Below, piece after piece: positions 2,841 through 27,664 of a stretch of DNA of 64,000 bases. A model generated the notes under the pieces. The model saw only the letters and a list, made by a program, of their open reading frames with translations. It searched no databases and was not told the origin of the DNA. Positions within the stretch are counted from its first letter, which is position 1. Each line of letters starts with the position of its first letter. This DNA is from Lachnospiraceae bacterium (GTDB lineage Bacteria > Bacillota > Clostridia > Lachnospirales > Lachnospiraceae). Both the position numbers and the translations under genes were made by a program. The stretch lies in NCBI GenBank assembly GCA_030536685.1, contig JAUNPP010000002.1, positions 1 to 64,000 on the forward strand, in the 5' to 3' direction.

Positions 2841-3944
2841 TTACACAATTGCCCATGTAATATGCATCTGATAATAGAAAAATGCTAAATATCCTATTAC
2901 CATCGCAATCTTGACCAATCTTGCAGATTCCTTTGTAAAAATATTATCTATCAACCATGGCATACATAAATTTCCATAAAGGGAGATAAATATCGGAAGA
3001 CGCCCAACGTAAATTCCTGAAGAAAATGCTGCTGCTAAATACCAGAATGCCGTTAAAACTGAGGCATTTACACACAAATTGATAACAGGATTATCTGCTG
3101 ATTTTACATATTCTCTTCCTATTACAGCCATAATTGCTGGAACAGAATATACTAAAACTCGCATTATATTGGTTCCATCATCATTTAACCAAATTTCATT
3201 TGTCATCAGATCACTATACTGTGTATCTGCTAGCAAATTATTCATAATTGGCGTCAGTCTATCAAGCAAGAAAAGTGCTGTGACAATTACCACAATAAAC
3301 ATCATTGTCTTTTTATTAAACGCTTTTCCACGGATAATAAATACCACTGGTAACATAATCAATGCTGAACCATGGATTGTTGATGCCAGTAAAATCAAAA
3401 AGACAAGAGCTATATATTTCTTCTCTAATAGCAAACTAAAACCAGCGAAAATAATTGTTACTGCTATAAACTGACGCATACCATTCTGCATCCAAGATAA
3501 ATAGTCTGTTGAAGCAATAAATATAAACATACTTATCCAAAAATTAGTGGAATATTTTCGAAATACAGTTACAATACAGAACATCTGGAAAGCAGCTATA
3601 GCAAAGAAAAACCGCACTCTTGAATCTCCAAATATAGACTTAAAAACAATCATCAATACAGAGAATCCCTTATCTTTCGTATGTTCTGATAAATACATCG
3701 GAATATCACTAATTACAGATGGCACTTCTTTAAAAATCTTTGCATATGCTATGGAATCACCAAAATCTGTCCTTGTTGCAGCCCAAATTACATAGGGCAA
3801 TGCTACAATAATCACTGCCGGCCAACTCCATCTATATTCTTGTTTTCCGTAAATCATTTCTTTTTGTTTTGGCATACTAATTGCCATTGTTCCACCCACG
3901 GCAAATATCCATATCAGTAGCCACCAGTAATTTGTTAGCACCAT
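2841..3944 (-). CDS. EpsG-type exopolysaccharide polymerase (complete copy)
   Basis: This 367-residue polytopic membrane protein has about ten hydrophobic segments and matches the EpsG family of Wzy-like polymerases, which join repeat units outside the membrane. Family-like features are the early ATRTDFGDSIAYAKIF loop, the SWMQNGMRQFIAVTI segment and the late GRLPIFISLYG segment. A GAGAGGG site precedes the ATG. A clear paralogue, truncated after the matching FSLY, lies about 23 kb away at 26639-27664, so this copy is the intact one. It is followed on the same strand by the three glycosyltransferases. Confidence 0.82.
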   Translation of the reverse strand: MVLTNYWWLLIWIFAVGGTMAISMPKQKEMIYGKQEYRWSWPAVIIVALPYVIWAATRTDFGDSIAYAKIFKEVPSVISDIPMYLSEHTKDKGFSVLMIVFKSIFGDSRVRFFFAIAAFQMFCIVTVFRKYSTNFWISMFIFIASTDYLSWMQNGMRQFIAVTIIFAGFSLLLEKKYIALVFLILLASTIHGSALIMLPVVFIIRGKAFNKKTMMFIVVIVTALFLLDRLTPIMNNLLADTQYSDLMTNEIWLNDDGTNIMRVLVYSVPAIMAVIGREYVKSADNPVINLCVNASVLTAFWYLAAAFSSGIYVGRLPIFISLYGNLCMPWLIDNIFTKESARLVKIAMVIGYLAFFYYQMHITWAIV

Positions 3945-4624
3945 ATCGAACCCTCTCTATCCCTTATAATCAAATGATTTTATCTTTTACTCCTTGTAAA
4001 CCGTCTCTGTTATTCTCTACAACATGTTATTTTTCAGAACATTTTAATTTATTTATATCTGCGAATTGATACTATCTTCCCATTACGCCTTTTAGCATAA
4101 ACAACCACTCAAAGAAATAGGCTAAAACCTCTGCAGAAGTCGCATAGAATACTGCCAACACAGGAAGATCAGATAGCTTTTACCTGTATCGTGAATCATA
4201 TACTCTCAACTATAAAACTTGGTCATGAACCTTTCTCAATTCACTATAATACCACAGAAATCGCCCATTTTAAAGTAAGCAGCAGCATTTTCTCTACTGT
4301 AATCCAGCATTTATTTTGTACACAATCCTTCCATCTTAAAATATATCTAGTTTACCATGAAAAATCTGTTGTATATCCAGCAACATCTCCATATGCTGCC
4401 TTTCAGTTTTCCAGTTATTGTAAATTCTTTTGCGAAATTCGCACAGAGCGCCATTTAAAATTTTAACACAATCTACCAAATTTTGTACTGCCATTTATGA
4501 CAGTAAGCCTGCTATTTATACAAAGAGAGGGTCGGTGTCTTCGCTGCTTTTCTTGCAGCAACATTTAATTGCAAATTTTTTTCACTTTTTTATCTCATGG
4601 TATGAGTGTTTCCACCATGGACGC
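3945..4624. other. 680-bp AT-rich gene-free stretch
   Basis: I see no convincing gene here; the short open frames lack ribosome sites and known motifs. One imperfect palindrome lies at about 4486-4505 (TACTG...CAGTA around CCATTTATGA). The stretch separates the polysaccharide genes from the mobile element and should contain the element's left end, but I found no direct repeat that would define an attachment site. Confidence 0.5.
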
Positions 4625-4653
4625 TTAAAATGATATCCCATGGTATGTATAAT
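4625..4653 (+). promoter_or_regulatory. Promoter of the Xre regulator with a repeated CATGGTATG
   Basis: A TATAAT -10 at 4648-4653 lies 17 bases after a weak -35 (TTAAAA). The 9-mer CATGGTATG abuts the -10 at 4639-4647 and also occurs at 4596-4604, so it could be the autorepression operator of the downstream regulator. Confidence 0.5.
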
Positions 4654-4674
4654 AACAATATAGGAGGACTACAG

Positions 4675-4992
4675 ATGGAGGACATACTAAAGACAATGGG
4701 TCAGCGAATCGTCTGCCTCCGCAAAGAGCAGAACTGGACGCAGGAATATCTCTCTCAGATAAGCGGAGTCAGCAGCCAGACAATCTCAAATGCAGAGCGT
4801 GGCGTGAAAGCACTGCGCCCGGAAAACATAGTTAAACTCAGTCAGGCTTTTCAGGTATCTACGGACTACATTCTGACTGGACACAGGAACTCGGCAGACT
4901 ATTTATTTATGGAAGTTAAGCTGTCAACACTCACTCAAAAGCAAAGCGATCGTATGATGCGTGCTATTAAATTTCTTCTGGAAGAAGACTAA
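4675..4992 (+). CDS. Xre-family helix-turn-helix regulator
   Basis: This 105-residue protein has a Cro/C1-type HTH over about residues 8-65: RIVCLRKEQNWTQEYLSQISG, then VSSQTISNAERGVKALRPENI. A short acidic tail follows. The ATG was chosen because it lies 7 bases after AGGAGG; upstream in-frame ATGs would overlap the promoter. Small Xre proteins at the edge of mobile elements usually repress transfer or excision genes, and that role is inferred here. It converges on the relaxase gene, with a shared terminator between them. Confidence 0.85.
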   Translation: MEDILKTMGQRIVCLRKEQNWTQEYLSQISGVSSQTISNAERGVKALRPENIVKLSQAFQVSTDYILTGHRNSADYLFMEVKLSTLTQKQSDRMMRAIKFLLEED

Positions 4993-5035
4993 CAGCCTGT
5001 TACAGAGTATCCGATCTCTGCATCAGGCTGTTTTA
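4991..5035 (+). terminator. Rho-independent terminator between regulator and relaxase
   Basis: A 9-bp stem (AACAGCCTG with CAGGCTGTT) encloses a second stem (CAGAG/CTCTG) and is followed by TTTT on the plus strand. It starts in the last codons of the regulator gene. Confidence 0.75.
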
Positions 5036-5038
5036 TCA

Positions 5039-6625
5039 TTAGTCAATACCTGTGGGATGTTTTTCTTCCTTTTGTGATTGTGTTTCATGCGTTATGAAAC
5101 TGTTCCTGTTTTGGATGAGTTTTTGAAGCTCCGCCCTCTGGCTGCGCAGACTGCAGTATTCCTGATATTGTTTATCTTTCAGCGCAGACAATCTGGTTTT
5201 TTCCTCTTTCAGGGATGTCACCGACGGCAGCTTTTGTTCACCGAACAGTTCTCGCAGTTCTTTGGACGCTGCTTCATGCAGACTGATTTCTGAACGGTGT
5301 TCTTCATAGAAATCTGTTTGCTTTTTACCATTCAGCCAGATACGGTAAACCTGTTTGGTACTGTAATACTGACCAATAAGCCGGAGCGTCCGGTTCACTG
5401 ATCGGAGCTGCTCTTCCGTTGCCTTTAGTTCTGACTTGCTGCGCCTGTATGCGGCTGTAAGAAGTGCGGTTCCTTCATCCAGTTTATCGCTCTCCAGCAA
5501 GCCCCTTTCCACAAGAAAGTTAAAGGTTTTTGCCTGTTCCTGAAGATTGTGGATTTTAGCCCAGCGTTCATATCCTTTACTGGATTGTACCTTTTGATTA
5601 TGCGCGATATCAACCATCCGACCAATGGATTGGCTGCCTTCCAAAACACTGACAGACGGGAACGACGGCATCTGATTTTCGTTTGCTTCAGACATTTCCA
5701 ACTTTTGCTCATCGTGAGCAAAAGTGATACTGCCTGTTCCAAAAATAGTTGCTGCGACAGCCTCTTTTATAAAAGCGTCTCCCAGCTTTTTTCCGGAAAT
5801 TGCTTTCTTTCTTCCGGGTGGCAGATAACTGTAGCGCCCGCGGCTTTCCTTTACCTGTATGCCATAAACGTCCAGAAGTTTTTGTTTGAATTCTTCCAGA
5901 TTGACGCTCTGTTTCATAGTAGATGCAATCGCCTGACGGATTTTTTCTTTTTCCGTTTGAAACCTTGTACCTTCTGCATCGGCTTTGCGCTGTCCTCGCT
6001 GGGCAGCATGATACTCTGCATCGGTCACACGTTTCAGAGAACCGGTCATATCTACCTGATGAAGACCATGTTCCCGGCAAAGATTCATGACCTCATTTTG
6101 CAGATAAGCCAGCAATGCTTTTGTACAGTTATGCTTATATCCTGCTTTTGTATCACAGGAACGCATTTCGTAAGGAAGTGGTCCTGTATCCAGCATCCTG
6201 AGACTGTTCAGCACGATATGCACATGAATATTCCCGGAGCCGTTGTGCCCATCTTCGTGGGTACAGACAAGCATCTGATGCCCAGGGAAATGAGCCTTTG
6301 CGAACTCCATACCGAGCATCTGCGCTTTCTGTACTGTCAGCCCCAGTTCCTGATCTCTGGGGTCGAAGCTTAGGATATAATGATGCGTTTTAATATCATT
6401 TTTGTTTTTGTTTTTCCCATACGTCCGATTGAGTTTATGACACTCTCTTGCAAACGTATGTGGATTGCAGTTGATGCCCTCCAACAGATAGTTTTCCCGC
6501 TGGATCAGGTATCCTTCCTCATCCAGTATCGGTTTCCCGGTTTCTTCATCATGTTGGAAGACAAGGTATCGTTCTGCGACGGTGTAATCAGCATTTTTAC
6601 TGGCGATATGTTTGAGGATTGCCAT
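5039..6625 (-). CDS. Relaxase (MobA/VirD2-type mobilization nuclease)
   Basis: This 528-residue relaxase would nick oriT and lead the transferred strand into the recipient. The N-terminal domain has THHYILSFDPRD near residue 85 and the three-histidine metal site GNIHVHIVLNS near residue 135, preceded by THEDGHNGSG. The C-terminal half is helical and charged, as is usual for DNA-contacting or coupling tails. The start overlaps the mobC stop as TAATG, so the two are translationally coupled. A perfect-armed palindrome sits inside the coding sequence at 5699-5725, and the same palindrome recurs just after the recombinase array. Confidence 0.9.
   Translation of the reverse strand: MAILKHIASKNADYTVAERYLVFQHDEETGKPILDEEGYLIQRENYLLEGINCNPHTFARECHKLNRTYGKNKNKNDIKTHHYILSFDPRDQELGLTVQKAQMLGMEFAKAHFPGHQMLVCTHEDGHNGSGNIHVHIVLNSLRMLDTGPLPYEMRSCDTKAGYKHNCTKALLAYLQNEVMNLCREHGLHQVDMTGSLKRVTDAEYHAAQRGQRKADAEGTRFQTEKEKIRQAIASTMKQSVNLEEFKQKLLDVYGIQVKESRGRYSYLPPGRKKAISGKKLGDAFIKEAVAATIFGTGSITFAHDEQKLEMSEANENQMPSFPSVSVLEGSQSIGRMVDIAHNQKVQSSKGYERWAKIHNLQEQAKTFNFLVERGLLESDKLDEGTALLTAAYRRSKSELKATEEQLRSVNRTLRLIGQYYSTKQVYRIWLNGKKQTDFYEEHRSEISLHEAASKELRELFGEQKLPSVTSLKEEKTRLSALKDKQYQEYCSLRSQRAELQKLIQNRNSFITHETQSQKEEKHPTGID
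5699..5725. repeat. Palindrome inside the relaxase gene, copy 1
   Basis: The arms ACTTTTGCTCA and TGAGCAAAAGT pair perfectly around the spacer TCG. The same arms occur at 22213-22241 around CAA. In the relaxase frame the palindrome encodes ITFAHDEQKL, so it is tolerated within coding sequence. Confidence 0.85.
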
Positions 6626-10915: not shown

Positions 10916-10967
10916 AAGCCTTTGGTCTTTTGATGGCACCACTATGTTGTCAGGAGGCCAGAGGCTT
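10916..10967 (+). promoter_or_regulatory. Leader hairpin covering the ribosome site of the first recombinase
   Basis: Twelve bases at 10916-10927 (AAGCCTTTGGTC) pair with 10956-10967 (GGCCAGAGGCTT) with two G-U pairs. The right arm overlaps the end of the AGGAGG at 10952-10957 and stops one base before the ATG at 10969. Folding would limit translation of the coupled seven-gene operon. Confidence 0.5.
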
Positions 10968-10968
10968 T

Positions 10969-12681
10969 ATGTATTTATCAGAACAATCAAAAGAATCTAT
11001 GGACAAAGAATACCTGTGCGCCTCGTATGTTCGTTTATCACAGGATGATGGAGACAAAGAGGAAAGCAACAGCATCATCAATCAAAAAACACTGATACGG
11101 GATTATATCAAGAACCACTCCGATCTCACACTGATAGAGGAATATGCAGATGATGGTTATTCCGGAGTAAATTTTGAAAGACCGGACTTTCAACGGATGA
11201 TGAACGATGTTAAGGCAAAAAAGATTGACTGTATCGTTGTCAAAGACCTCTCCCGTTTCGGTCGAAATTATATTGAGGTCGGAAGATACCTGCAACAGGT
11301 TTTCCCCTTTATGGGAATCCGTTTCATTGCCATCAATGATAGTGTTGACAGTGGCAAAAAACAGACGGATGCAGAACAGTTCGTACTGCCATTTAAGAAC
11401 CTGTTCAATGACAGCTATTGTAAAGATATTTCCATCAAAGTACGTTCCCAGCTTGCGATCAAGCGTAAAAACGGAGATTTTGTCGGGAGCTTTGCCTGTT
11501 ATGGTTATCTAAAGAATCCGGCTGACCATAACCAGCTCATGATCGATGAAGAGGTTGCCGATATCATCCGCTCCATCTTTCTCTGGAAAATCATGGGACT
11601 CTCCGCTGATCGGATTGCTGAGAAGCTCAATTCGCAGGGCATCCCCTGTCCTATGGAATATAAAAGAAGCCTTGGATTGAAAGTCTCTACGAACTTCCGA
11701 ACCAACGGTACCGCCAAATGGTCACACATGACGGTTCTTCGCATCTTAAAAAATGATATCTATATCGGAAATATGACACAGGGGAAACAGACTACGCCGA
11801 ACTATAAAGTCAAACGGCTGATTGATAAACCGGAGGAAGAATGGGATCGTGTGGAAGGTACACATGAAGCAATCATATCCGAAGATGTCTTTGAGACCGT
11901 ACAGGCGCTCATGCTGCAGGACACCCGTATTTCTCCATGGGAAACAAAAGTTTATCTTTTTTCCGGATATTTATTCTGCGGTGATTGCAAGATGAGCATG
12001 TCCCGCCGTACAAGAAAGAATAAAAGCAGTACCCGCTCTTACTATTTCTGCTCCGGGTACAAACGTAAAAACGGCTGCACCTCTCACAATATCAGTGAGG
12101 AGCGGCTCTATCATGCGACACTCTCGGCAATCCAGCAGCAATGCCGGATGATAACGGATATAGAGCGTGTCCTTCGTTATGCAAAAGACCTCCCGGATGA
12201 CCCGAACAGTCTGAAACGCTATGACATCCAACTGGCAAAATTGGATGAAGAAATTGATAAAAATCAGACCATGAAACTGCGGTTGATTGAAAACCTGAAT
12301 GACGGCATTCTTTCCAGCCAGGAATACCTGGATCTTGTAAAGATATACGATACCCGCATTCTGGAGGGAAGAAAAGCCAAACAGGTAGTAGCTGCGGAAC
12401 GTGCCGGTCTTCAGGATCTTCCACTTGAATCGGACTGGCTGACAGCATTTAAAAAATATCAGGAGATCACAGCCCTTGACCGGATTGTTCTGGCTGAACT
12501 GGTGGAACGGATTGAGGTGTATGCAGACAAAGAAATCGTTATCCGTTTTAAATTTTCTGATCAGATCAAAAGAGTACAGGAATATCTGGCTGAGCGGCAT
12601 CTGTTACCGGAGGCTTGTCCAGTTCAGCCGGATATAAAGGAGACACCATGGCAAGAAAAAGCAGAATTGCTGCGCAGTTAA
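10969..12681 (+). CDS. Large serine recombinase 1 (type X)
   Basis: This 570-residue large serine recombinase cuts and rejoins DNA through a serine nucleophile. The catalytic domain is intact: YVRLS (Arg22, Ser24), then VKDLSRFGRNY. A recombinase domain (GYLKNPADHNQLMIDEEVAD, near residue 190), a zinc ribbon (FCGDCKMSM...YFCSGYKRKNGC, near residues 340-375) and a coiled-coil tail follow. I start it at MYLSEQSKES because AGGAGG and a leader hairpin sit just upstream. It shares the ESNSIxNQ motif with recombinases 3 and 7 but has its own inter-motif sequence, so I class it apart. The next gene overlaps it by 34 bases. Confidence 0.93.
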   Translation: MYLSEQSKESMDKEYLCASYVRLSQDDGDKEESNSIINQKTLIRDYIKNHSDLTLIEEYADDGYSGVNFERPDFQRMMNDVKAKKIDCIVVKDLSRFGRNYIEVGRYLQQVFPFMGIRFIAINDSVDSGKKQTDAEQFVLPFKNLFNDSYCKDISIKVRSQLAIKRKNGDFVGSFACYGYLKNPADHNQLMIDEEVADIIRSIFLWKIMGLSADRIAEKLNSQGIPCPMEYKRSLGLKVSTNFRTNGTAKWSHMTVLRILKNDIYIGNMTQGKQTTPNYKVKRLIDKPEEEWDRVEGTHEAIISEDVFETVQALMLQDTRISPWETKVYLFSGYLFCGDCKMSMSRRTRKNKSSTRSYYFCSGYKRKNGCTSHNISEERLYHATLSAIQQQCRMITDIERVLRYAKDLPDDPNSLKRYDIQLAKLDEEIDKNQTMKLRLIENLNDGILSSQEYLDLVKIYDTRILEGRKAKQVVAAERAGLQDLPLESDWLTAFKKYQEITALDRIVLAELVERIEVYADKEIVIRFKFSDQIKRVQEYLAERHLLPEACPVQPDIKETPWQEKAELLRS

Positions 12682-14372
12682 GTCTGTCCGGAAATGCTTC
12701 TGTCACCCCGCCTGAACCAGGACCAGCAAAACTAAAAACAGGGATTTATGCACGGTTATCCATCAAAGACTTAGGGATTGAAGACGGTGACACAATGGAA
12801 ACACAGATTGCCCTGCTCCGGGACTATGTAACCCAGCAGGAAGACATGGAATTAAGAGAAATCTATGTTGATAACGGATGGTCTGGAACGAATTTTCAAA
12901 GACCGGAATTTAACCATCTGCTGGAAGATGTCAAAGAAGGAAAAATCAACTGCATCGTTGTCAAAGATTTATCCCGCTTTGGCAGAAACTATCTTGAAGC
13001 CGGTTACTATCTGCAGAATGTGTTTCCTTCTTACGGAGTACGCTTTATCGCTATCTATGACAGTTATGACAGCCAGACTTCTGACCCTGATTCTCTGATG
13101 GTCGTTATGAAGAATATCGTGAATGATTATTACAGTAAGGATATCTCAAGAAAAATATCCGCCACGATTGATCTGAAACGGTCACAGGGGCCTCTTTACA
13201 TGGGGTCTCCGCCATACGGCTATAAAATGAATCGTTCCGAACCCAGGCGTTACCTGAAAGATAAGAAGGCGGCAGCTTATGTGCACCTCATCTTCCACTG
13301 GGCATTAGAAGGTTTGTCCCCGTACAGGATTGCCTGCAATCTGAATGATCTGCAGGTTCCTTCCCCGCAGGCACACTATTACCAGAATCACGCAAACAGG
13401 AAATCCGGGAAATCATCTGCAGGAAATACCTGGATTGCAACCACTATTTCCGGTATTCTCTCAAACCCTGTTTATACTGGTAATTACTATTGCAATAAAA
13501 GTTACTTTCGAAAATATGACCCAGGTAATGCAGGAAATATTCCGGAAGAAGAATGGATCTGCTATCCCAATGTCCATGAAGCCTATATCAGCACCGAAGA
13601 TTTTGAGAAATTAAAAAAGAAACGGGAGGATGAAGAACAGCTCCGCCAGGATGCCAGAAAGAAGCACAGACTCCTCCCCTCCTCCCTGAATCTTTTCAAA
13701 GAACTTGTTTACTGTGGAGAATGTGGAAGAAAACTTCTTTTTCAGATCAACAGGGAGAATTTTAAATTCAGTACCTTTCATTGCACCGGTAAAGCATCCA
13801 GGATGTTAAGCGGTCATCCAAGGCTCTCCATTACCTATGCTGCAATAGAGAGTATTGTACTTTATAACCTGCAGACGCAGTTCCGGCTGGCTATTGAAGC
13901 AGATTCTTTCCTGAAGCGGTTATCAATGGAAGATGCCCGTAAGAGATTAAAGTCTCGAAGGCAGGCAGAACTTCAGGTACTGCATTCAAAACTGGCAGCT
14001 ATTGTATGTAAAAAGCAAAAAGCATTTGAGGATATGACAACCGGTCTTTTAGAACCGGCAATCTATAAAATGCAGATAGAGAAGCTGAATCAGGAAACTA
14101 TGTGGCTGGAAGAAGATCAAAAAAATGCACAGAAACGTCTGGAAGAAGTTGATACCTACTTTACTCCGGATAATGAATGGCTTCGGGCTTTCCTGGCAGC
14201 AAACATCTCAGAGGAACTGAATACACCTGCTGTTCGGATTCTCATCAAACGGATTGATATATGGAATGACCGCCAGATATGCATCACCTTTCAATTTGCT
14301 GACTGGATGGAAAAGCTCAATTCCTGTATCGCCGAATGGAAACTATTAGAAATGGAGGATTCAAATGAATAA
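12648..14372 (+). CDS. Large serine recombinase 2 (type A)
   Basis: This recombinase has 574 residues from MARKSR, with ATAAAGGAG just before the ATG inside the previous gene. Catalytic residues are present (YARLS with Ser38; VKDLSRFGRNYLEAGYY). The recombinase domain begins at SPPYGYKMN. The zinc ribbon (YCGECGRKL...FHCTGK) has three clear cysteines and ends differently from its neighbours. The tail is coiled coil. It is a close paralogue of recombinase 6: both begin MARKSR, place the serine at residue 38 and share KINCIVVKDLSRFGRNY. It overlaps the next gene by 8 bases. Confidence 0.92.
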   Translation: MARKSRIAAQLSLSGNASVTPPEPGPAKLKTGIYARLSIKDLGIEDGDTMETQIALLRDYVTQQEDMELREIYVDNGWSGTNFQRPEFNHLLEDVKEGKINCIVVKDLSRFGRNYLEAGYYLQNVFPSYGVRFIAIYDSYDSQTSDPDSLMVVMKNIVNDYYSKDISRKISATIDLKRSQGPLYMGSPPYGYKMNRSEPRRYLKDKKAAAYVHLIFHWALEGLSPYRIACNLNDLQVPSPQAHYYQNHANRKSGKSSAGNTWIATTISGILSNPVYTGNYYCNKSYFRKYDPGNAGNIPEEEWICYPNVHEAYISTEDFEKLKKKREDEEQLRQDARKKHRLLPSSLNLFKELVYCGECGRKLLFQINRENFKFSTFHCTGKASRMLSGHPRLSITYAAIESIVLYNLQTQFRLAIEADSFLKRLSMEDARKRLKSRRQAELQVLHSKLAAIVCKKQKAFEDMTTGLLEPAIYKMQIEKLNQETMWLEEDQKNAQKRLEEVDTYFTPDNEWLRAFLAANISEELNTPAVRILIKRIDIWNDRQICITFQFADWMEKLNSCIAEWKLLEMEDSNE

Positions 14373-15999
14373 TAACCTTGCCTGTTATATCAGGCTTTCC
14401 CTTGCGGATGGCGATCTGGGAGCCGGCAAGGATGAAAGCAACAGTATCAAAAACCAGAGAGAGCTTCTCCTGAATTATATCAGGAGTCATCCAGAGTTTC
14501 AGGGATGGAACATTCATGAATTTGTAGATGATGGCTATACCGGAACAAATGATGACCGTCCGAATTTCCAGCGGATGATTGAGCTGGCAAAAGACGGACA
14601 GCTCCAATGTATCATCGTCAAAGATTTATCCCGTTTTGCAAGAAATTATGTGCTGTGCGGTGATTATCTGGAACAGATTTTCCCATTCCTCGGTGTACGT
14701 TTTATCGCAGTCAATGACCGTTATGACAGTGCCAAAACCACCAGCGTCGATGACAATATGAGTATGGTGCTGAAATCTGTCCTGAACGCTTATTACAGTA
14801 AGGATATTTCACGCAAAATATTTTCTTCTTTTACCCAGAGGATGAAAAAAGGAATTTATCTTGGCAATACACCATACGGATACCTTCCGGATCACGAACA
14901 TCTTCGGTATGCCATTGATCCGGAGGCGTCACAAGTCGTCCGTAAGATCTTTAACCTGGCATTATCCGGAAAGAGTAAACTGCAGATTGCCGCAGCCTTA
15001 AATTCAGAAGGCATACTTCCACCCGGAGAATACAACCGTTTAAATGGAAAGATTCACAAAAATACCCGTGGCATTGCCGCATCCCCTATCTGGGAACCGA
15101 ATAAGATTATCTCTATTTTAAGAAATCAGGCTTATATGGGTGATCGTATCATGCGGAAACAAGTCCCTGTGATTCCCGGTTCAAAAATCCGGAGAAAAGC
15201 AAATGCGTCGGAACAGATTATTCACAGAGATGCCCATGAGGCGATCGTGACCCGGAAGGAATTTGAACGTGTGCAGGAACTGTTTCCTTACCGCCCCAAT
15301 ACAAAGCGCAGTTCAACCCTTGAATATACCCTGAAAGGCGTTGTGCGCTGCGGTACCTGCCGCCGGGCAATGGCACGTTCCCAGAGCAATAAGCATTATT
15401 CCTGTCCACATGCCCGGATGATCGATTCACCCTGCCCGAAAAAGAATTATGAAGTTTCTGAAATTGAAGCGATAATCTTTGAATCACTAAAACCGATGCT
15501 TACCATGGCAGTCGCTGCCGATAACCGCAGGAATAAGCGAAAGCAGTCTGCCGACTGGCTGACACAATGCCAAAAGGAAATCGGTACTGCGGAATTTACA
15601 GAAAAACGTATACAGCAGAAGAAACTGGATGCTTACGAGGACTATTCCAACCAGCGTATTTCCCTCAAAGAATACCAGAAACGAAAAGATTCCCTGAACC
15701 AGCAGGCTTCGGAAAATCAGAAAAAACTGGAAACCTTGAAAGAACAGGAACTTGCTTTTACAAGCGGATTGATTCCACATGAAATTCAGGCTGTCACAGA
15801 TTCTTCCCGAAAATATCTGCACAGCAGCTCACTCACCCGTGATATGGTCACAACCTTTGTCGATAGTATTTATGTCTATGAAGACCACTATGAAATCGTA
15901 TGGAAGTTCCGTGATGTATGGAAACAACTGGAAGAACGTGAAAATACCCCATCAACTCATTCATTACAAGAAAGGATGAACCCAAATGACACGCAATAG
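14365..15999 (+). CDS. Large serine recombinase 3 (type B)
   Basis: This is a 544-residue recombinase with a very short N-terminus (CYIRLS, Ser12). It has KDESNSIKNQ, then IIVKDLSRFARNYVLCGDYLEQIFP, given here in part. The catalytic set is complete, the recombinase domain starts at NTPYGYLPD, and a zinc ribbon (RCGTCRRAMA...YSCPH) and coiled coil follow. It pairs with recombinase 7, which has the same Ser12 position, the same RFAR variant and a similar tail. Its stop overlaps the start of the catalytic-domain-less recombinase 4 by 14 bases. Confidence 0.92.
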   Translation: MNNNLACYIRLSLADGDLGAGKDESNSIKNQRELLLNYIRSHPEFQGWNIHEFVDDGYTGTNDDRPNFQRMIELAKDGQLQCIIVKDLSRFARNYVLCGDYLEQIFPFLGVRFIAVNDRYDSAKTTSVDDNMSMVLKSVLNAYYSKDISRKIFSSFTQRMKKGIYLGNTPYGYLPDHEHLRYAIDPEASQVVRKIFNLALSGKSKLQIAAALNSEGILPPGEYNRLNGKIHKNTRGIAASPIWEPNKIISILRNQAYMGDRIMRKQVPVIPGSKIRRKANASEQIIHRDAHEAIVTRKEFERVQELFPYRPNTKRSSTLEYTLKGVVRCGTCRRAMARSQSNKHYSCPHARMIDSPCPKKNYEVSEIEAIIFESLKPMLTMAVAADNRRNKRKQSADWLTQCQKEIGTAEFTEKRIQQKKLDAYEDYSNQRISLKEYQKRKDSLNQQASENQKKLETLKEQELAFTSGLIPHEIQAVTDSSRKYLHSSSLTRDMVTTFVDSIYVYEDHYEIVWKFRDVWKQLEERENTPSTHSLQERMNPNDTQ

Positions 16000-17242
16000 A
16001 ACATACCCCCTGCCATCGAATGGCGAAAAAACTGCAAGATGGATTCCATATGGTTATCTGTATGATCCAGATGCGCCTGCTTTGATTGCAATCGATCCTG
16101 AAGCATCCAATACCGTCCGATATATTTTTGAGGAATATTTAAAAGGCATCTCGCTTTCTGAAATCTGCAGGATGCTGACAGAGAAAGGCGTTCCCACCCC
16201 TTCGGACCGAAGGGCACAGCTCGGTGCTGCTCCTGCTGAAAAATCCAACACATATTGGAAGGCTACTGCTCTAAATCAAATGTTATTCCATCCTGTATAT
16301 GCGGGAGATTGGATTTTGGAAGGAAGAGTCTGGGACTGCTGTTATTACTATAGCGGTATCCCATATCCGAATGGGATTACAGCGCCTGTCATCGAAAAAG
16401 ACCACCATGAAGCACTGGTGCCAAGAGATTATCTGGTAAAAGCCGCTCAGATGTTCCTTGAACAGCGGAAAGAAAGGAATACCATCCAGCAGAAGCCGTT
16501 TACGGATACGCCAGAGCTATCTCCTTTTTCCATCCTAAACCTTTTGCGCTGTGGAATATGCGGACGATTTCTTACTCCCGCCGAAATTTCCCTTCAAAAT
16601 GGAAAAGGGTTTACAGCATATTTCTGTTCCAGCATCAACCAGAAGAAACCGGGAGACTGCAGTAATTATGTGTACCGCCTGGATACGCTACTCTCACTTG
16701 TTCACGAAATACTCTCTGAAGAACGAAAAAATGCCCTTCGCTTCAGCCAGACTTCTTCCAAAAGGTCACAGGACAAAACCTACACGGTACTTGAAGCGGA
16801 ATTTCAGGAGCAGATTGATCAAACGATAGATGAAGTACGAAGCCTGATAGAAGAACAAAATAAACTGGAACGAAGCTATAAAACACACGGTATCTCTCAG
16901 GAAGAATATGACAGGCTTTCCGCTGATCTGGCAAAACGGATTTCACACGGCGAGCATAAAGTCATGGTTGCCTTAACAAAAATCCGTGATTTCCGAAAAT
17001 TATGCGGCGAAAAAAATGCCTGGGTATCCTTGTTTGCAAATCTTCCGGAAGATTTTACAGATAGCAGTATCGAATACAAGAGATATATCCAGAAAATCAA
17101 TGTTTTCCCTGACCAGCCGCCTGTGATCTTTCTGAAAAGAATGGATGCGAAAAAACAGCTCATGGAAACATTGAACCTTCCCTATAACGACCCGGAAACA
17201 GATACTTTTGACGATATAAATAAAGCCACGGAGGAAAATTAA
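15986..17242 (+). CDS. Recombinase 4 (type C): DNA-binding part only, no catalytic domain
   Basis: This 418-residue protein begins almost directly at the recombinase domain (WIPYGYLYDPDAPALIAIDPEA, quoted in part) and lacks the roughly 145-residue resolvase domain, so it cannot cut DNA. The rest is complete: recombinase domain, zinc ribbon (LRCGICGRFL...YFCSS...GDC), long coiled coil and the tail INVFPDQPPVI. It is not an obvious accident: the ATG has AAAGGA nine bases upstream, the frame is open for 1.25 kb, and it overlaps the previous gene. It is homologous to recombinase 5. A role as DNA-binding partner of the active recombinases is inferred. Confidence 0.88.
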   Translation: MTRNRTYPLPSNGEKTARWIPYGYLYDPDAPALIAIDPEASNTVRYIFEEYLKGISLSEICRMLTEKGVPTPSDRRAQLGAAPAEKSNTYWKATALNQMLFHPVYAGDWILEGRVWDCCYYYSGIPYPNGITAPVIEKDHHEALVPRDYLVKAAQMFLEQRKERNTIQQKPFTDTPELSPFSILNLLRCGICGRFLTPAEISLQNGKGFTAYFCSSINQKKPGDCSNYVYRLDTLLSLVHEILSEERKNALRFSQTSSKRSQDKTYTVLEAEFQEQIDQTIDEVRSLIEEQNKLERSYKTHGISQEEYDRLSADLAKRISHGEHKVMVALTKIRDFRKLCGEKNAWVSLFANLPEDFTDSSIEYKRYIQKINVFPDQPPVIFLKRMDAKKQLMETLNLPYNDPETDTFDDINKATEEN

Positions 17243-18931
17243 ATGGAACCCGAAAATAACACAAAATGCTATCATGCAGCCCTTTATGCAAGAAGAAAAT
17301 TTACGGATACAATCACCAAAGATGAACCGGATCCTACAGCAGCATCACAGATTAAAGAAATGAAAAATTATCTGCAGGATTACCCGGAGATAAAAGTGGA
17401 CGGTATTTACATGGACAACCATAAAATCAAACAGGAAAGTCCACGCCCTGAATTTTACCGTCTGGCAAAGGATTTAAAAAATGGTCTGTATAACTGCCTT
17501 GTCATGACCAGTCTCGACCTTTTTGCCAAAGATCATATGGAAACCAAATACTATCTGCTTAACCTGTTTGCAGTTATGGGAATCCGGATACTGTCCATTC
17601 AGGATAATTATGACAGCCTGTATTCAGAAAAAGCTGCCGGCTCTCATGACCGCTTAGAGGAACTTGTATGCCAGATGGATGCTCTCAGCCGTTCCCGGAT
17701 TCTTTCAAGAAGCTCTCTGCAAAAGAAGAATGACACATTCCTGGAATTTACTTTTACGCCTTTTGGTTACCTTTATAATCCGGATATCCCTTCCAATCTG
17801 GAAATCGACGAAGAAACCGTGGATGCTGTCCGCATGATATTCAAGGAATACCTTTCCGGAACTAATATGAATCAAATTGCGCAAAAGCTGACGGATATGA
17901 GAATACCCAGCCCCTCCCTGCGGAAGGAACAGCTCGGAATGGAATACCGGCATCCCTCTTCCAAAGATTACTGGACATCCGGCGGCGTTCATGCGATCCT
18001 GAAAAACCCACTATATACCGGTGATCTGGTCATTGGCAAACAGCGTTCGGCTCAGTATGTGTTCCGGGATTACAAACGGCATCCGGATCTGGATGGAAAC
18101 GTCATTCCCAACCATCACGTAGCGATCATATCACATGCCGATTTTGAACGGGCCAGATTGATGATGGATATTCTGCATCGAAAGCGCCAGGAAATCATAG
18201 CCAAACGTCCGCAGCCTGCTCTCCCGCCGACACCTTTTGTCAATTCGGTTTATTGCGGCATCTGCCATCGTTCCATGTATCATGTACGCTATAATGCCAC
18301 AAGCAGGAATCCATATTCTATCTATGTCTGTTCCAGTCATCGTCAGAAACTGGAAAATGCCTGCCCGCTCCACCATTTCAGAGTTGATGAAATCATCCCT
18401 GCAGTAAAGGACTACATTATGGAAGAACACAGACTGGCACTTACGATCATTGCGCAAATGCAGGATGGGGAAAACAGTGACTTATATCAGAAAATTGATT
18501 CTCACTTTCAGCAAAGGATTGCAAAAGTCATGGAAAAGGTACAGCAAAATGTACTTGCCCTGACTGCTCTTCCAGATGAAGAGGAAGAAAAACGGGAAAA
18601 GCTGAATACAGAATCCACGCTTCTACGATCAGAACTTGTCGAGATCCTGGATGAAAAGAAAAAGTTCAGTAAAGAATTTACACTGAAAAACAAGTGGCTG
18701 CAGACATATGGCAATATACCGGAAAATTTTGAACTGACAAGGCAATATGGACGTACTCTGGTCGAACGGATTGAGCTGACCCCGGATCAGCCGCTCGTCT
18801 ACACGCCAAAGCATCTCAAAGAGAAAGAATTGCTGCTCCACTATATCACATTGAGCAAGGAGGTTCCTGATGGCACGAAAAAGCAGAGAACAGATACAGT
18901 ATGCGAAAGCGACCGGACAGACATTTCTTGA
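17243..18931 (+). CDS. Recombinase 5 (type C): full length, catalytic residues lost
   Basis: This 562-residue protein has the full large-serine-recombinase layout, but its active site is gone. The Y-A-R-L-S motif reads YARRK, putting Lys19 in place of the serine. The DLSRFGR motif reads SLDLFAK (residues 90-96), replacing both arginines with Leu93 and Lys96. The recombinase domain (TPFGYLYNPD), the zinc ribbon (YCGICHRSM...YVCSSHRQK...ACP) and the coiled coil are intact. The start directly follows the stop of gene 4 (TAAATG). The next gene overlaps it by 62 bases. Intact DNA-binding modules argue for a retained non-catalytic role. Confidence 0.92.
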   Translation: MEPENNTKCYHAALYARRKFTDTITKDEPDPTAASQIKEMKNYLQDYPEIKVDGIYMDNHKIKQESPRPEFYRLAKDLKNGLYNCLVMTSLDLFAKDHMETKYYLLNLFAVMGIRILSIQDNYDSLYSEKAAGSHDRLEELVCQMDALSRSRILSRSSLQKKNDTFLEFTFTPFGYLYNPDIPSNLEIDEETVDAVRMIFKEYLSGTNMNQIAQKLTDMRIPSPSLRKEQLGMEYRHPSSKDYWTSGGVHAILKNPLYTGDLVIGKQRSAQYVFRDYKRHPDLDGNVIPNHHVAIISHADFERARLMMDILHRKRQEIIAKRPQPALPPTPFVNSVYCGICHRSMYHVRYNATSRNPYSIYVCSSHRQKLENACPLHHFRVDEIIPAVKDYIMEEHRLALTIIAQMQDGENSDLYQKIDSHFQQRIAKVMEKVQQNVLALTALPDEEEEKREKLNTESTLLRSELVEILDEKKKFSKEFTLKNKWLQTYGNIPENFELTRQYGRTLVERIELTPDQPLVYTPKHLKEKELLLHYITLSKEVPDGTKKQRTDTVCESDRTDIS

Positions 18932-20600
18932 TCCGGCTTCAGTCAAACCTGCAGTACGGACAGCAATCTATGCCCGTCTCTCATTATATGATATGAACTG
19001 GTCATGCAGGGACAGTATGCAAAACCAGATACATTTGCTGGAATCCTATATGGCTGAACACCCTGAATTAAATCTCACAGACAGGTACATTGACAATGGC
19101 TGGAGCGGTATGGATTTTAACCGCCCAGCCTTTAAACGGCTTTTAACAGACATCCATTCCGGAAAAATCAATTGTATTGTAGTTAAAGATCTCTCCCGTT
19201 TCGGCAGAAACTATGTAGAAACCGGATACTATCTTGAAAATGTATTTCCTTCTCTTGGCATCCGGTTCATTGCAATCAACGATCATTTTGACAACCAGAC
19301 GGCGAGACCGGATGATCTTGGAATCATCCTGAAAAATATCCTGAATGAATTTTTCAGCCGTGACCTTTCACGCCGATACTGCGCCAGTATAGATATCCGC
19401 CGCCAAAAAGGTGTCTTCCGTCACGGTACCCCATATGGCTATATGCATGATCCTGAAAGACCAGATTATCTTACGTTTGACCCTTCTGTATCCCACTACG
19501 TTCATCTTATCTTTCAATGGGCACTGGAAGGTACCCCTACAAGTAAAATCGCACATCGGCTCCGGCAGATGAATGTACCAACTAAGGAACGAATGGAATA
19601 TTTGAGAAATAAAGAAAAAACCAGGCATAAGGGAAGTACCCGCTGGGATGTAAATAGTGTCCGGGAAATGCTGATGAACCCGGTTTACGCAGGAGATTTT
19701 GTATACGGCAAAATACGCAAACGAAAATGTGACCCTTATAACAACCGTGTGATTCCGAAAGAAGAATGGACGGTTATTTCTGATGCTTTCCCCGCCTATA
19801 TCAGCCATGAACAATTTGACCAGATTCAGGAGCGCATGGAAAAAAACACGCAAACATTCTATCAGCAGATAGAAAACAAAAAATCCATCCATGAAGAAGT
19901 ACCGAATTATTTCAAGGATCTGCTTTACTGCGCCATCTGTGGGAAAAAAGTACACTCTTCCCTGGATGCCCGCGAAAAATCACAATCTTATCTGGTTTAT
20001 TTCTGTTTTCAGTATGGAAATGCCAGACATGAACCGCATCCGAGAGTCAATATACATAAAAAACTTCTGGATACCATCGTCCTGGATGAAATACAAAATC
20101 AATTTCGGTTAGCAGAACAGTTTTCTCAATGGCTTCATTCTCCTACCTGTCAGGCTCAGGCAAAGCAATGGCTTCGAAAGCAACAGCAGCTACTTGAATC
20201 ATTAAATCAAGAAGCCGCACAAAATAAATCTGAACTGGCACAGACTTTTGAAAATTTTGCTTCAGCATGTATTACAGAAGAGATGTTTCTCCAACGGAAA
20301 ACACAACTGAAACAGCAGGAAAAGGCGCTTACCGCATCACTGGAAAAACAGGCAAAGCACATGCAGGAAATCCAGCGGGCACTTTCCAAAGCCAATCCCT
20401 GGCTGAATCTGCTCAATCAATTTGCCTACCCGCATTGCTTAACGGAGTCGCTTACCCATACGCTCATCGACAGGATCATTCTGGGACTTGGAGGCGAATT
20501 GCAGATTATCTTCCGGGAGGAGCATTGGCACCATCTGTTTACCCAATATTGTGAGGAAATTCAACATAGTGACATTCAAAAGGAGGCAAATTCTGAATGA
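18870..20600 (+). CDS. Large serine recombinase 6 (type A)
   Basis: This is a 576-residue recombinase starting MARKSREQIQ, with GGAGG six bases upstream, deep inside gene 5. It has the complete active site (YARLS with Ser38; VKDLSRFGRNYVETGYY), recombinase domain (TPYGYMHDPERPDYLTFDPS), zinc ribbon (YCAICGKKV...YFCFQYG) and a glutamine-rich coiled coil. It is the second type A member, the paralogue of recombinase 2. ATGA overlap joins it to recombinase 7. Confidence 0.93.
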   Translation: MARKSREQIQYAKATGQTFLDPASVKPAVRTAIYARLSLYDMNWSCRDSMQNQIHLLESYMAEHPELNLTDRYIDNGWSGMDFNRPAFKRLLTDIHSGKINCIVVKDLSRFGRNYVETGYYLENVFPSLGIRFIAINDHFDNQTARPDDLGIILKNILNEFFSRDLSRRYCASIDIRRQKGVFRHGTPYGYMHDPERPDYLTFDPSVSHYVHLIFQWALEGTPTSKIAHRLRQMNVPTKERMEYLRNKEKTRHKGSTRWDVNSVREMLMNPVYAGDFVYGKIRKRKCDPYNNRVIPKEEWTVISDAFPAYISHEQFDQIQERMEKNTQTFYQQIENKKSIHEEVPNYFKDLLYCAICGKKVHSSLDAREKSQSYLVYFCFQYGNARHEPHPRVNIHKKLLDTIVLDEIQNQFRLAEQFSQWLHSPTCQAQAKQWLRKQQQLLESLNQEAAQNKSELAQTFENFASACITEEMFLQRKTQLKQQEKALTASLEKQAKHMQEIQRALSKANPWLNLLNQFAYPHCLTESLTHTLIDRIILGLGGELQIIFREEHWHHLFTQYCEEIQHSDIQKEANSE

Positions 20601-22212: not shown

Positions 22213-22241
22213 CAACTTTTGCTCACAATGAGCAAAAGTTG
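22213..22241. repeat. Palindrome after the recombinase array, copy 2
   Basis: The arms CAACTTTTGCTCA and TGAGCAAAAGTTG pair perfectly over 13 bp around CAA, with an outer CGGGTG/CACCCG pair. The inner 11-bp arms are identical to those inside the relaxase at 5699-5725. No T tract follows, so it is not a standard terminator. Confidence 0.88.
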
Positions 22242-23423: not shown

Positions 23424-24809
23424 TTAAATATATAATTTCTGATCACCAATCGGAACATTAACCATAGTCATTGCTACACACTCACCATTTTTGATAATAT
23501 AGCATTCTACAAAATGTGGACCTCCGAATTCTGATTCCTCTCTTTTCGACTTACCACACTTTTTCTCAATTTGGCCTCGAATTTGATTTTTCTTTTCTGC
23601 TATTGATCCAACATTTCGAACTTTCCACCAGACTTCATAAGGATAAGGAACATCTGTTTCAGCTTCAAAATCTATTGTTAATCCGTGTGGCATCAACTTA
23701 TGAAACCGTGGAAATTTTTCCAGGAATTTATATAACGGCTGCTGATGAATTCCATTTGCCTGTACTTTACATGATACCCACACATTATAGCAGTCATTTA
23801 TCGGTACCATATCTTCAATAAATTCCTCTGTGTCACTATACTGTGACTTTTTCAAAGAAGCTGCCTCAAACATACCTTTTTCTTTATCTGACAAATCAGA
23901 CCAATAATCATGATTAAAAAATTTATTCCATGCTTCGAGTGCCTGTTTATAAGTACATTTTTCATCTAAAAGCACATTCAATGAATCTATTTTGCTACTT
24001 AATCTTAAGAGCCAATTATCCATTTTATCATAATGATTCTGTGCTGTAAGAAGTGATAACTCTGTATCTACCGGATTAGAAACTTCAGTACTTTCTTCAA
24101 GACGATTTTTCACTGCAACCATTGTATTGTAGAATATTTCGTCAATTCTTTCATGTTCTGAATCAAATACTTCATCACATATCACTGACTGAATTAGTCC
24201 TCCTGGCATATTAACCCATCCAGCTCTCGATTTACAGAACATCTTTGACAAACGTACTACTTTTCTTAGCCCAGTCCCTTTTGATTTTACTTCATCCAAA
24301 AACCACTTGGTAATTGCTGCCGGATTACGTGTTTTCCATTCCGTACCTGCATGTTCGTAAGTATACTCCGTTTTACCTTCTTCTCTAAATCTCCTGTAAA
24401 CAGCAAAATCCACATGATAACCATCTGCATACTGAACTCTTACACAATTCGTTTTGCATTCAGGAGACGTATTAAATTGTCCACACTTCTTTTCGAGTGC
24501 TTTGCACACAACTCTTCTTGCTTGTAACGGACTCAAATCTCCCAAATTGCTCTTATCAAAAACAATTGCTACGTCAATATCATAATCGTTATTATCATTT
24601 TGTACAACGGTAGACATTGCCATACTCCCTTGAACACGCTTTTCAGCTATAGAATAGTTTGTTTTTTTATCCTCATTGTAAAGTTTCAGACCTTCTTCCA
24701 GACGTTTTACGTTTAAATTTTTCTTTTCACGCAAATTTTGTTGTTTGTCATTGCTTAAAACAACATAGTCTTTATAGAATCGTTCAAATTCTTTTGAAGC
24801 ATCGTACAT
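23424..24809 (-). CDS. CBASS CD-NTase (cGAS/DncV-like nucleotidyltransferase) with AGS-C-like domain
   Basis: This 461-residue enzyme should make a cyclic oligonucleotide alarm signal on phage infection. The polymerase-beta-type active site is complete: GS at residues 61-62, the metal-binding DID at 77-79 and the third aspartate at 134 (HVDFAV). The C-terminal 80 residues (YEVWWKVRNVGSIAEKK, GGPHFVECYIIKNGECVA) match the AGS-C sensor domain often linked to such enzymes. The start is 10 bases after the SAVED gene's stop, with AAAGGGGTG upstream. No Cap2 or Cap3 gene is present, so this is a minimal type I layout. The nucleotide product cannot be read from sequence. Confidence 0.87.
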   Translation of the reverse strand: MYDASKEFERFYKDYVVLSNDKQQNLREKKNLNVKRLEEGLKLYNEDKKTNYSIAEKRVQGSMAMSTVVQNDNNDYDIDVAIVFDKSNLGDLSPLQARRVVCKALEKKCGQFNTSPECKTNCVRVQYADGYHVDFAVYRRFREEGKTEYTYEHAGTEWKTRNPAAITKWFLDEVKSKGTGLRKVVRLSKMFCKSRAGWVNMPGGLIQSVICDEVFDSEHERIDEIFYNTMVAVKNRLEESTEVSNPVDTELSLLTAQNHYDKMDNWLLRLSSKIDSLNVLLDEKCTYKQALEAWNKFFNHDYWSDLSDKEKGMFEAASLKKSQYSDTEEFIEDMVPINDCYNVWVSCKVQANGIHQQPLYKFLEKFPRFHKLMPHGLTIDFEAETDVPYPYEVWWKVRNVGSIAEKKNQIRGQIEKKCGKSKREESEFGGPHFVECYIIKNGECVAMTMVNVPIGDQKLYI

Positions 24810-24818
24810 CTATAAACA

Positions 24819-25919
24819 TCACCCCTTTACTAATTTTCCACGATTTGAAGACGTTTTATCAGTAATCACTATGCCAAAAGAATATTTTGGTGTTTCTGTA
24901 TGTACATAATGATAAGAAATAATCTGTGGTAAACGATTATTATTATGAGCAAACAATTTTCCTAACTCTAAAGATACGCAGCTAGGTATTGATGCCACAA
25001 AATGCACTTTCTGCAAATATGGATATTTTTGCTTCAAGTCTTCAATCTGATTAAGAACATACATCGCATATTTATCCAACTGTTTCATTGTTGTAATGAT
25101 ATTGTCATCAGGATTTGGTAAATCAATTCTCACAACGTCCATTCCTGCAAACTGTATTAAATCTCCCGAATTTACTTTTCGAGTTATGGAAAGTGCCACA
25201 ACTACATCCGTCGCATTGTTATCAAGTGCACTTGGATATTGAGTATCAAGTGCATCGTATGTTTTTCTTTTTTTTCCTGTTTTTAATTCATAAAATTTAT
25301 TCTCAGCTCTTTTATACTCAAAATATCTTCTTACATTTCCTGATCCCAAATACGTTCCTGCCAAAATTGTATACGGAATAGGTGCCATGCCGGTAAAACA
25401 TGATTTAAAATCCTTACTTCGATTAACAAATGCAGTACACTGTTTTTCTATTTTCCTGACAATAATATCGTTTATCTTCTCTGTCATTTTTATATCAAAA
25501 ATGTCTACAAAGTCTACGATAACTTCTTTTACTTTAAAATCTTCCAGCTTCAAATCTGATACATTTTTTGTATCACTAATTTCATGCTGTGCGAACAAAC
25601 CTAACATATTCAAAACAAAAATTCTGTCTTTTATGTTCTGTCTGTAATAGATTCCCACAACTATAAGCAGTGCTCCACATACTATTGCAACATAATCCAC
25701 GCCCGTGGATAACTCCATATTAAACTGAGAACCTATTATTGATAACACCATTTCTTTAGTTCCCGGAAAAGCAGAACACACCAATGAAATTCCTGCTGTA
25801 ACCATACTCACAGACAAGTCTGTTGCTGAGTTTGCTTTCATAAGGTACCTTCTAATTATTACCACAGATACGCAAAGTACAATAATTATTCCTATAACAG
25901 CTACATAATACTTAATCAC
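24819..25919 (-). CDS. TM-SAVED CBASS effector (Cap14-like)
   Basis: This effector has about 366 residues from a GTG start. A hydrophobic helix at residues 4-23 and further membrane-like segments near 33-50 and 78-97 precede a cytosolic SAVED domain (GMAPIPYTILAGTYLG; VVVALSITRKV; VHFVASIPSCVSLELGKL; YSFGIVIT). SAVED domains bind cyclic oligonucleotides, so binding would activate the membrane part and damage the infected cell. The GTG is preferred because AGAGGAG lies 8 bases upstream; the more upstream ATG at 26030 would lie within the promoter. It is the first gene of the CBASS pair, and this layout fits the Cap14 group. Confidence 0.85.
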   Translation of the reverse strand: MIKYYVAVIGIIIVLCVSVVIIRRYLMKANSATDLSVSMVTAGISLVCSAFPGTKEMVLSIIGSQFNMELSTGVDYVAIVCGALLIVVGIYYRQNIKDRIFVLNMLGLFAQHEISDTKNVSDLKLEDFKVKEVIVDFVDIFDIKMTEKINDIIVRKIEKQCTAFVNRSKDFKSCFTGMAPIPYTILAGTYLGSGNVRRYFEYKRAENKFYELKTGKKRKTYDALDTQYPSALDNNATDVVVALSITRKVNSGDLIQFAGMDVVRIDLPNPDDNIITTMKQLDKYAMYVLNQIEDLKQKYPYLQKVHFVASIPSCVSLELGKLFAHNNNRLPQIISYHYVHTETPKYSFGIVITDKTSSNRGKLVKG

Positions 25920-25952
25920 ACTTTCATTTCTCCTCTCTAAATTTCTATTTTC

Positions 25953-26002
25953 GAGTGCTAACATCTGCGTTATTGTTAGCACTCCACTGTATCGAGTGCT
26001 GA
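25953..26002 (-). promoter_or_regulatory. CIRCE-type (HrcA) operator of the CBASS operon
   Basis: TTAGCACTC-N9-GAGTGCTGA at 25976-26002 matches the CIRCE consensus TTAGCACTC-N9-GAGTGCTAA at 17 of 18 positions with the exact 9-base spacer. A third perfect half site, GAGTGCTAA, lies at 25953-25961. The main element covers the expected transcription start, the classic CIRCE position. CIRCE is known as the HrcA repressor site of groESL and dnaK operons. Confidence 0.85.
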
Positions 26003-26006
26003 CAAT

Positions 26007-26035
26007 AATATACCATACTCTCACTTCCATGGCAA
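26007..26035 (-). promoter_or_regulatory. Sigma-A promoter of the CBASS operon
   Basis: On the minus strand TTGCCA (26030-26035) and TATATT (26007-26012) are separated by exactly 17 bases. The predicted start, near 26000, falls inside the CIRCE element. Confidence 0.8.
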
Positions 26036-26638: not shown

Positions 26639-27664
26639 TTACCCAAAAACGAGAGGGTAAATTTGTACAATATTTTTTTGTGTTTCTTCTTGACCGTGAG
26701 GGTATAAAGAAAAATAAATGGGAAGTCGTCCAATAAAAACTCCGCTGGTAAACATGGAAACCACATAAAATCCCGTTGCTATAATGGACATATTTGTACT
26801 CATATTAATAATCGGATTGTCTGCCTTTTTAATATATTTCAATCCAATCAATGAAAGAATTGCCGGAATTGAATAAACTAAGACTCTCAAAAAGTTTGTT
26901 CCATCATCCTGCCATTCTTTCCAATCACTTACTACATTTTGATACTGTGTCTCTTGCAACATAGTATCCAGAATAGTGGTAAACTGACCAATAGAGAAAA
27001 CTATAGCAATTGTTGCAAAAATAAAAAGAATTGTCTTTTTATTCCATGCACCACCCTGAACAATAAACATAAATGGCAGCACCAGTAATGCTGTTCCATG
27101 TACCGTTGATGCAAGCAAAACCATCAGAATAGCAGGCGCGTATTTTTTCTTTAATATAAATGGGCAGGCTGCAAAAGTAATAGTAACCGCTAAAAACTGA
27201 CGGATTCCGTTAAACATCCATGAAATGTAATCTGTAGATATTAGAAAAAGAAAAATACTAAGCACATATCGTGTAGAATATTTCCGATAAATCTTTACTA
27301 AAAGAATTCCCTGAAGCGCTGCAATTATCAAAAAATATAATTCTACCTCATTTCCGATAATTGTTTTAATCAAGGCTGAAAATGCATAAAATCCCCTATC
27401 CTTTTTTACTCCATCCATATATGGAAAAAATCCGCTTATCGATTCCGGCATTTCATTAAACGCTCTTGTGTACGCTGCCGTATCACCTATGTATTGTCTC
27501 ACAGAACAGAGATATAAAAGCGGGATGATGGCAAGAATAGCCCACCACCAGGTATATCTATAAACTTTTTCTCCACATACAGTTTCCGATTGTTCAGCTC
27601 TCACCATATTTGATAATATAGCAAATACGGCAATCCAAATTATAATCCAATAGTACTCTGACAT
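26639..27664 (-). pseudogene. EpsG-type polymerase, 3'-truncated copy
   Basis: This protein is a paralogue of the polymerase at 2841-3944 through most of its length: SVRQYIGDTAAYTRAF, DYISWMFNGIRQFLAVTI, QDDGTNFLRVLVYSIPAI, GRLPIYFSLY. After FSLY (about base 26702) the homology stops, and 23 unrelated residues (PHGQEETQKNIVQ...) lead to a stop. The intact copy continues for about 45 residues with two more hydrophobic segments. The 3' end was therefore replaced by foreign sequence. The 5' end is normal, with a GAGGATGGAG ribosome site. Whether the shortened protein still works is unknown. Confidence 0.75.

Follow-up and report, generated by a model that had tools for sequence, protein, structure and literature searches.

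A conserved gene for a large serine recombinase without a catalytic domain in the recombinase arrays of gut-bacterial mobile elements

Why should an array of site-specific recombinases carry a recombinase that has no catalytic domain? The question is raised by a stretch of 64,000 nucleotides from a Lachnospiraceae bacterium (contig JAUNPP010000002.1, positions 1 to 64,000; hereafter the window), in which seven overlapping open reading frames for large serine recombinases (LSRs) lie on the plus strand between 10930 and 22198. Such seven-gene arrays belong to a family of gut-bacterial mobile elements. A first-pass annotation singled out the fourth frame, gene 4, as an inactive paralogue of a dead neighbour and suggested that their lineage works without catalysis. 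Of that interpretation the paralogy stands, but two separate losses of catalysis are not borne out.

The array and the architecture of gene 4

The genes of the array are:

10999–12681, plus strand: gene 1 (R1), complete recombinase with a DUF4368 match; start codon uncertain (10930–10999)
12648–14372, plus strand: gene 2 (A2), complete type A recombinase
14365–15999, plus strand: gene 3 (B3), complete type B recombinase, in every locus directly upstream of C4
15986–17242, plus strand: gene 4 (C4), LSR without a catalytic domain, 418 amino acids
17243–18931, plus strand: gene 5 (C5), full-length dead paralogue of gene 4
18870–20600, plus strand: gene 6 (A6), complete type A recombinase, in every locus directly downstream of C5
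20597–22198, plus strand: gene 7 (B7), complete type B recombinase

Pfam detects the Resolvase domain (PF00239) in genes 1–3 and 5–7, strongly and together with a Recombinase domain in genes 1, 2, 3, 6 and 7 and weakly in gene 5 (1.3e-5). On the 5′ side of the array lie a relaxase, a MobC/NikA-like protein, a SARP-type regulator (BTAD), a sigma-like gene and a DUF6870 gene; on the 3′ side an alpha/beta hydrolase is followed by a CD-NTase and SAVED pair. The host element is most simply read as an integrative and mobilizable element. The pair at 23424–26030, a CD-NTase (SMODS/AGS_C) and a SAVED-domain membrane protein, constitutes a CBASS-like defence pair adjoining the element. Two similar multi-pass membrane proteins (2841–3944 and 26639–27664), named EpsG-like by eye, bracket the element and the defence genes, one on each side, within a polysaccharide locus. 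A perfect palindrome, ACTTTTGCTCA-NNN-TGAGCAAAAGT, occurs exactly twice in the entire genome and both times in the element: at 5701–5725, inside the relaxase gene in a part that is unconserved among related relaxases, and at 22213–22241, 14 nt 3′ of the last recombinase gene. It is suggestive as a candidate recombinase (att) site, or may instead be a hairpin terminator.

Gene 4 itself is described by the following features:

15970–15976, plus strand: ribosome-binding site GAAAGGA of gene 4; similar sites precede the other four orthologues
15977–15979, plus strand: in-frame TGA three codons 5′ of the ATG, which bars an in-frame N-terminal extension
16040–16492, plus strand: recombinase domain, residues about 19–169, opening with WIPYGY; Pfam core 38–156
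16544–16702, plus strand: first part of the zinc ribbon, residues about 187–239
16760–17011, plus strand: coiled coil of standard length with its tip, residues about 259–342

The ribosome-binding site, already proposed in the first-pass annotation, ends nine bases 5′ of the ATG at 15986, which is itself 14 nt inside the 3′ end of gene 3. Because of this overlap and the upstream TGA, there is no room for an in-frame catalytic domain before gene 4, and a hidden one can be ruled out. The annotation had put the start a few residues before the recombinase domain; the Pfam domain in fact begins 37 residues in, although the fold itself opens at residue 19 with the conserved WIPYGY. Family scans with Pfam and NCBIfam return matches to recombinase models only: Recombinase (PF07508) over residues 38–156 (1.8e-14, 54 bits, cut-off 21) and Zn_ribbon_recom (PF13408; 1.3e-5, 25.9 bits, cut-off 25.3). 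In the Pfam scan the Resolvase domain with its catalytic serine (PF00239) is absent, and by that measure gene 4 does not encode an active serine recombinase. All three hallmarks of the LSR family beyond it are nevertheless present, namely the recombinase domain, a four-cysteine zinc ribbon (Cys189, Cys192, Cys214 and Cys225, invariant in an alignment of four gene 4 orthologues) and a coiled coil inserted in the zinc domain.

In the predicted structure (mean pLDDT 88.7) the recombinase domain and zinc ribbon are joined by two long helices (264–300 and 305–340) that run antiparallel and form the coiled coil. Thus the architecture first read from the sequence, a zinc ribbon and coiled coil with no resolvase domain, is borne out by Pfam, the upstream TGA and the modelled helices. 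Foldseek and VIA-align match the model to the C-terminal parts of the SPbeta, Bxb1, A118/LI and phiC31 integrases, the best row of the structure search scoring Z 14.2. Residues 1–394 align with residues 136–460 of LI integrase (4kis) with Z 12.3 over 287 residues and an rmsd of 25 Å, a deviation that presumably reflects different domain placement. The N-terminal boundary of gene 4, aligning from LI residue 136, is nearly that of the construct crystallised with DNA, which spans LI residues 133–452 (PMC3783163).

Orthologues, ancestry and the loss of catalysis

Truncated gene 4 was found at five loci, the window, L036, L072, L077 and L079, the other four proteins being 36–41% identical to that of the window. 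One of the four (G369, 38% over the aligned part) turned up among 397 genomes searched within the family, and the remaining three came (L072, L077 and L079) from scans of genome and viral contigs; for the genome-contig scan alignment A3 was taken, alignment A1 being too divergent. All share the start P..G...TA.WIPYGY beside the 3′ end of a type B gene, which overlaps gene 4 in three loci (14, 11 and 44 nt) and leaves a gap in two (6 and 16 nt). The order B3-C4-C5-A6 holds at all five loci, with C5 dead in each, and the association with complete type A and B recombinases noted in the window is therefore general among them. The same architecture in four independent assemblies excludes chance or an annotation artefact as the source of the truncation, and its recurrence in independent loci likewise leads us to reject assembly error. 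Full-length close relatives, which the annotation had named as the sign of a merely recent deletion, were absent from more than 1000 distinct genomes and from viral contigs. Phage and plasmid records yielded no homologue of gene 4 at 1e-15, and for gene 5 ordinary distant LSRs only.

The array comparisons draw on seven loci, of which several are short metagenome-assembled contigs, and on uneven genome sampling, within which the C lineage is rare (4 of the 397 sampled family genomes). At L038, C5 is present and C4 absent. L037 has at the gene 4 position a still shorter gene of 251 amino acids with a zinc ribbon and coiled coil; a tree that groups it with gene 4 is unrejected (AU p 0.72), compatible with membership of the gene 4 group.

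Several observations lie beside this series. Among the first matches, the remaining LSR frames with a short N-terminus were mostly frame-shifted, cut at the C-terminus or situated at contig ends. Between the active A and B genes of another LSR array, a frame of 282 amino acids (L093:1663–2511) has a recombinase domain without a catalytic domain, and is a case separate from gene 4. As a mirror image of gene 4, L079 carries between type A and B genes a lone resolvase-type catalytic domain of 152 amino acids (624–1079) in which the catalytic serine is missing (AVYAMIDSDD). In L072 the type A gene that follows gene 5 (4087–5805) is interrupted by an in-frame stop near 4690. In L077 an eighth recombinase 3′ of gene 7 (12723–14324), C-like and dead (YIRIK, Arg71 lost), is followed by SARP and sigma-like genes and a hydrolase, a layout that is possibly a fusion of two elements. 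The SARP regulator, used as a marker for related elements, revealed no new array; its third match, G253, is a different element.

In a tree of 77 LSRs built on their shared C-terminal part, genes 4 and 5 fall in one C clade of 14 sequences (100/99), confirming the paralogy that had been proposed, and this clade is sister to the type A genes of the arrays (99/93). The five truncated gene 4 sequences form one clade (98/98), and the truncation therefore arose once and persisted. Within types A and B the tree separates A2 from A6 and B3 from B7, from which it follows that the duplicated array layout is old.

To score catalysis we used seven positions (Arg8, Ser10, Arg45, the Asp and the Ser before Arg68, Arg68 and Arg71), in gamma-delta resolvase numbering as assigned from the family motif. 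All seven are complete in every A, B and R1 array gene that reaches them. Eight full-length C proteins are available, seven of the C5 type and L077_C8, which is C-like but outside the gene 5 position. In all eight Ser10 is replaced by Lys, His or Ile and Arg71 is lost, and Arg68 is kept in L077_C8 alone; in window gene 5, Ser10 has become Lys (in YARRKF, 17297–17299), Arg68 Leu and Arg71 Lys. Since every full-length member, even the most divergent (L037_C5 and L077_C8), is without the catalytic serine, the C ancestor was most likely already dead. The order of events read from these sequences is probably a single loss of catalysis in the C ancestor, a duplication, and then a deletion along the C4 branch that removed the entire domain and most likely discarded a domain already unable to cut DNA. 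This departs from the first-pass view that genes 4 and 5 lost catalysis in different ways.

Between L072 and L077 the distances are 0.58 for B3, 0.56 for C4, 0.61 for C5 and 0.93 for A6, and in general C4 and C5 distances between loci are of the same order as those of the active A6, B3 and B7; for pairs that include the window, C4 distances are somewhat above B3 distances. Gene 4 pairs have pN 0.28–0.44 against pS 0.72–0.84, like the active neighbours, with synonymous sites so near saturation that pN/pS is given and dN/dS has no reliable value. By these measures the C genes are under purifying selection and change at roughly the rate of their active neighbours. The dead N-terminal domain of gene 5 is about as constrained as the rest of the protein, and its model still has the resolvase fold (matches to 3bvp, 4bqq and others). 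The coiled coil occupies 46 alignment columns in all five C4 proteins and in the array A, B and R1 genes that reach it (L079_A6, cut by a contig end, stands outside this comparison). Six of the eight full-length C proteins have 36, 31, 20, 36, 25 and 25 columns, window gene 5 being 10 columns short; the other two have 46, one with a degenerate tip. Descriptively, and as a pattern noticed post hoc, C4 thus has the interaction arm without the dimerising catalytic domain, whereas C5 has a dead dimerising domain with the arm usually shortened.

Comparison with known recombinase systems

The CcrA, CcrB and CcrC recombinases of SCC resemble the array in that one element carries more than one LSR, and the NCBIfam similarity is weak: the best neighbour scores 91 bits, where the Ccr equivalog cut-offs are 700–900 bits, and C4 gives no match. 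CcrA and CcrB both keep their catalytic domains. Closer in layout are the integrase triplets of streptococcal ICEs, where LSR genes likewise stand side by side in conjugative or mobilizable elements of Bacillota and cluster in trees by position (E, M, I) (Ambroset et al., PMC4701971). All integrases surveyed there carry the catalytic serine in a Resolvase domain (PMC4701971), whereas the array has seven genes, two of them non-catalytic, and is no such triplet. The gin element of Bacillus cereus carries three serine recombinases, GirA, GirB and GirC, of which excision needs only GirC together with the recombination directionality factor (RDF) GirX; the portion of that account available to us reports no member without a catalytic domain, unlike the array (PMC5595907).

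In domain content the nearest counterparts are the isolated C-terminal domains (CTDs) of the A118/LI and phiC31 integrases (PDB 4KIS), which like gene 4 consist of recombinase domain, zinc ribbon and coiled coil. Those, however, are laboratory pieces engineered from an active integrase, while gene 4 is a natural lone gene beside active paralogues. Our literature searches, partial in coverage so that reports may exist, found no natural dead or catalytic-domain-less LSR paralogues. The RDFs of serine integrases (gp3, gp44 and SPbeta YotN) offer a functional parallel to what we propose below, a change of coiled-coil contacts and with it of the reaction's direction, but those known are small unrelated proteins and C4 is homologous to the integrase itself.

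What gene 4 may do

On balance, we favour the view that gene 4 is a natural stand-alone LSR C-terminal domain that assists the element's own integration and excision module as an accessory protein without catalytic activity. It is probably no decaying copy but a recombinase turned into a dedicated regulator. The LI construct 133–452 alone contacts the entire 25-bp attP half-site (PMC3783163), the phiC31 CTD on its own both binds att sites and assembles into synaptic tetramers (PMC5814800), and coiled-coil contacts set whether sites synapse or are auto-inhibited (PMC3783163). Because these contacts decide between synapsis and auto-inhibition, a free CTD could change the direction of the reaction or block synapsis. 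C4 would use its recombinase domain and zinc ribbon to bind recombinase half-sites, its coiled coil would pair with those of the active A and B recombinases, and the synaptic complex that can form would be altered. It might compete with the inhibitory coiled-coil contact at attL and attR, much as a directionality factor does, or it might hold the sites in a non-productive complex; gene 5, with its dimerising fold kept and its coiled coil often clipped, could be the complementary, site-occupying partner. The site affinity of C4 might be low, since the dimerising catalytic domain and the linker helix are missing. This more specific picture, of a directionality or synapsis factor evolved from a recombinase, its coiled coil steering the active A and B proteins with dead C5 as partner, we put forward tentatively.

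The conservation of gene 4 would fit a transcriptional role equally well. C4, with C5, might act outside recombination complexes as a sequence-specific regulator on att-like operators, repressing or activating array or transfer genes, as retention of the DNA-binding domains after loss of catalysis and the position of C4 in an operon-like run downstream of the SARP-type regulator and sigma-like gene would allow. We consider this rather doubtful: a pure repressor would need no full-length coiled coil, yet C4 keeps one at all five loci, and the element already has dedicated regulators. By the established mechanism of serine recombinases, a subunit that lacks the nucleophile is unable to finish the four-strand reaction; C4 and C5 could accordingly occupy sites or form dead complexes as inhibitors of rival elements, keeping competitors from integrating or the resident from being lost, in hosts where LSR genes and triplets are common. 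The C genes are co-inherited with the element's B3 and A6, which points instead to partners within the element itself and makes inhibition of rivals unlikely.

It is harder still to regard C4 as a non-functional remnant persisting between overlapping essential genes. Translational coupling and the overlap with B3 could slow its removal, but across five lineages all its codons have stayed open while synonymous sites came close to saturation, and pN is far lower than pS. Zinc ligands, domain fold and the length of the coiled coil are retained, and L038 shows that C4 can be absent; we judge this reading very improbable. A recent local deletion from a full-length gene in the window genome, for which we found nothing in favour, is refuted by the same truncation in the four other loci, at 36–41% identity and in one clade, and by the empty search of more than 1000 genomes for a full-length version, and we give it next to no credence.

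That lineage C works without catalysis, as the first-pass annotation suggested, is inferred from its conservation. With a conserved natural C-terminal domain next to active paralogues, one can ask directly whether coiled-coil contacts suffice to steer the reaction, and integrase-based genome tools could gain a compact control element from gene 4.
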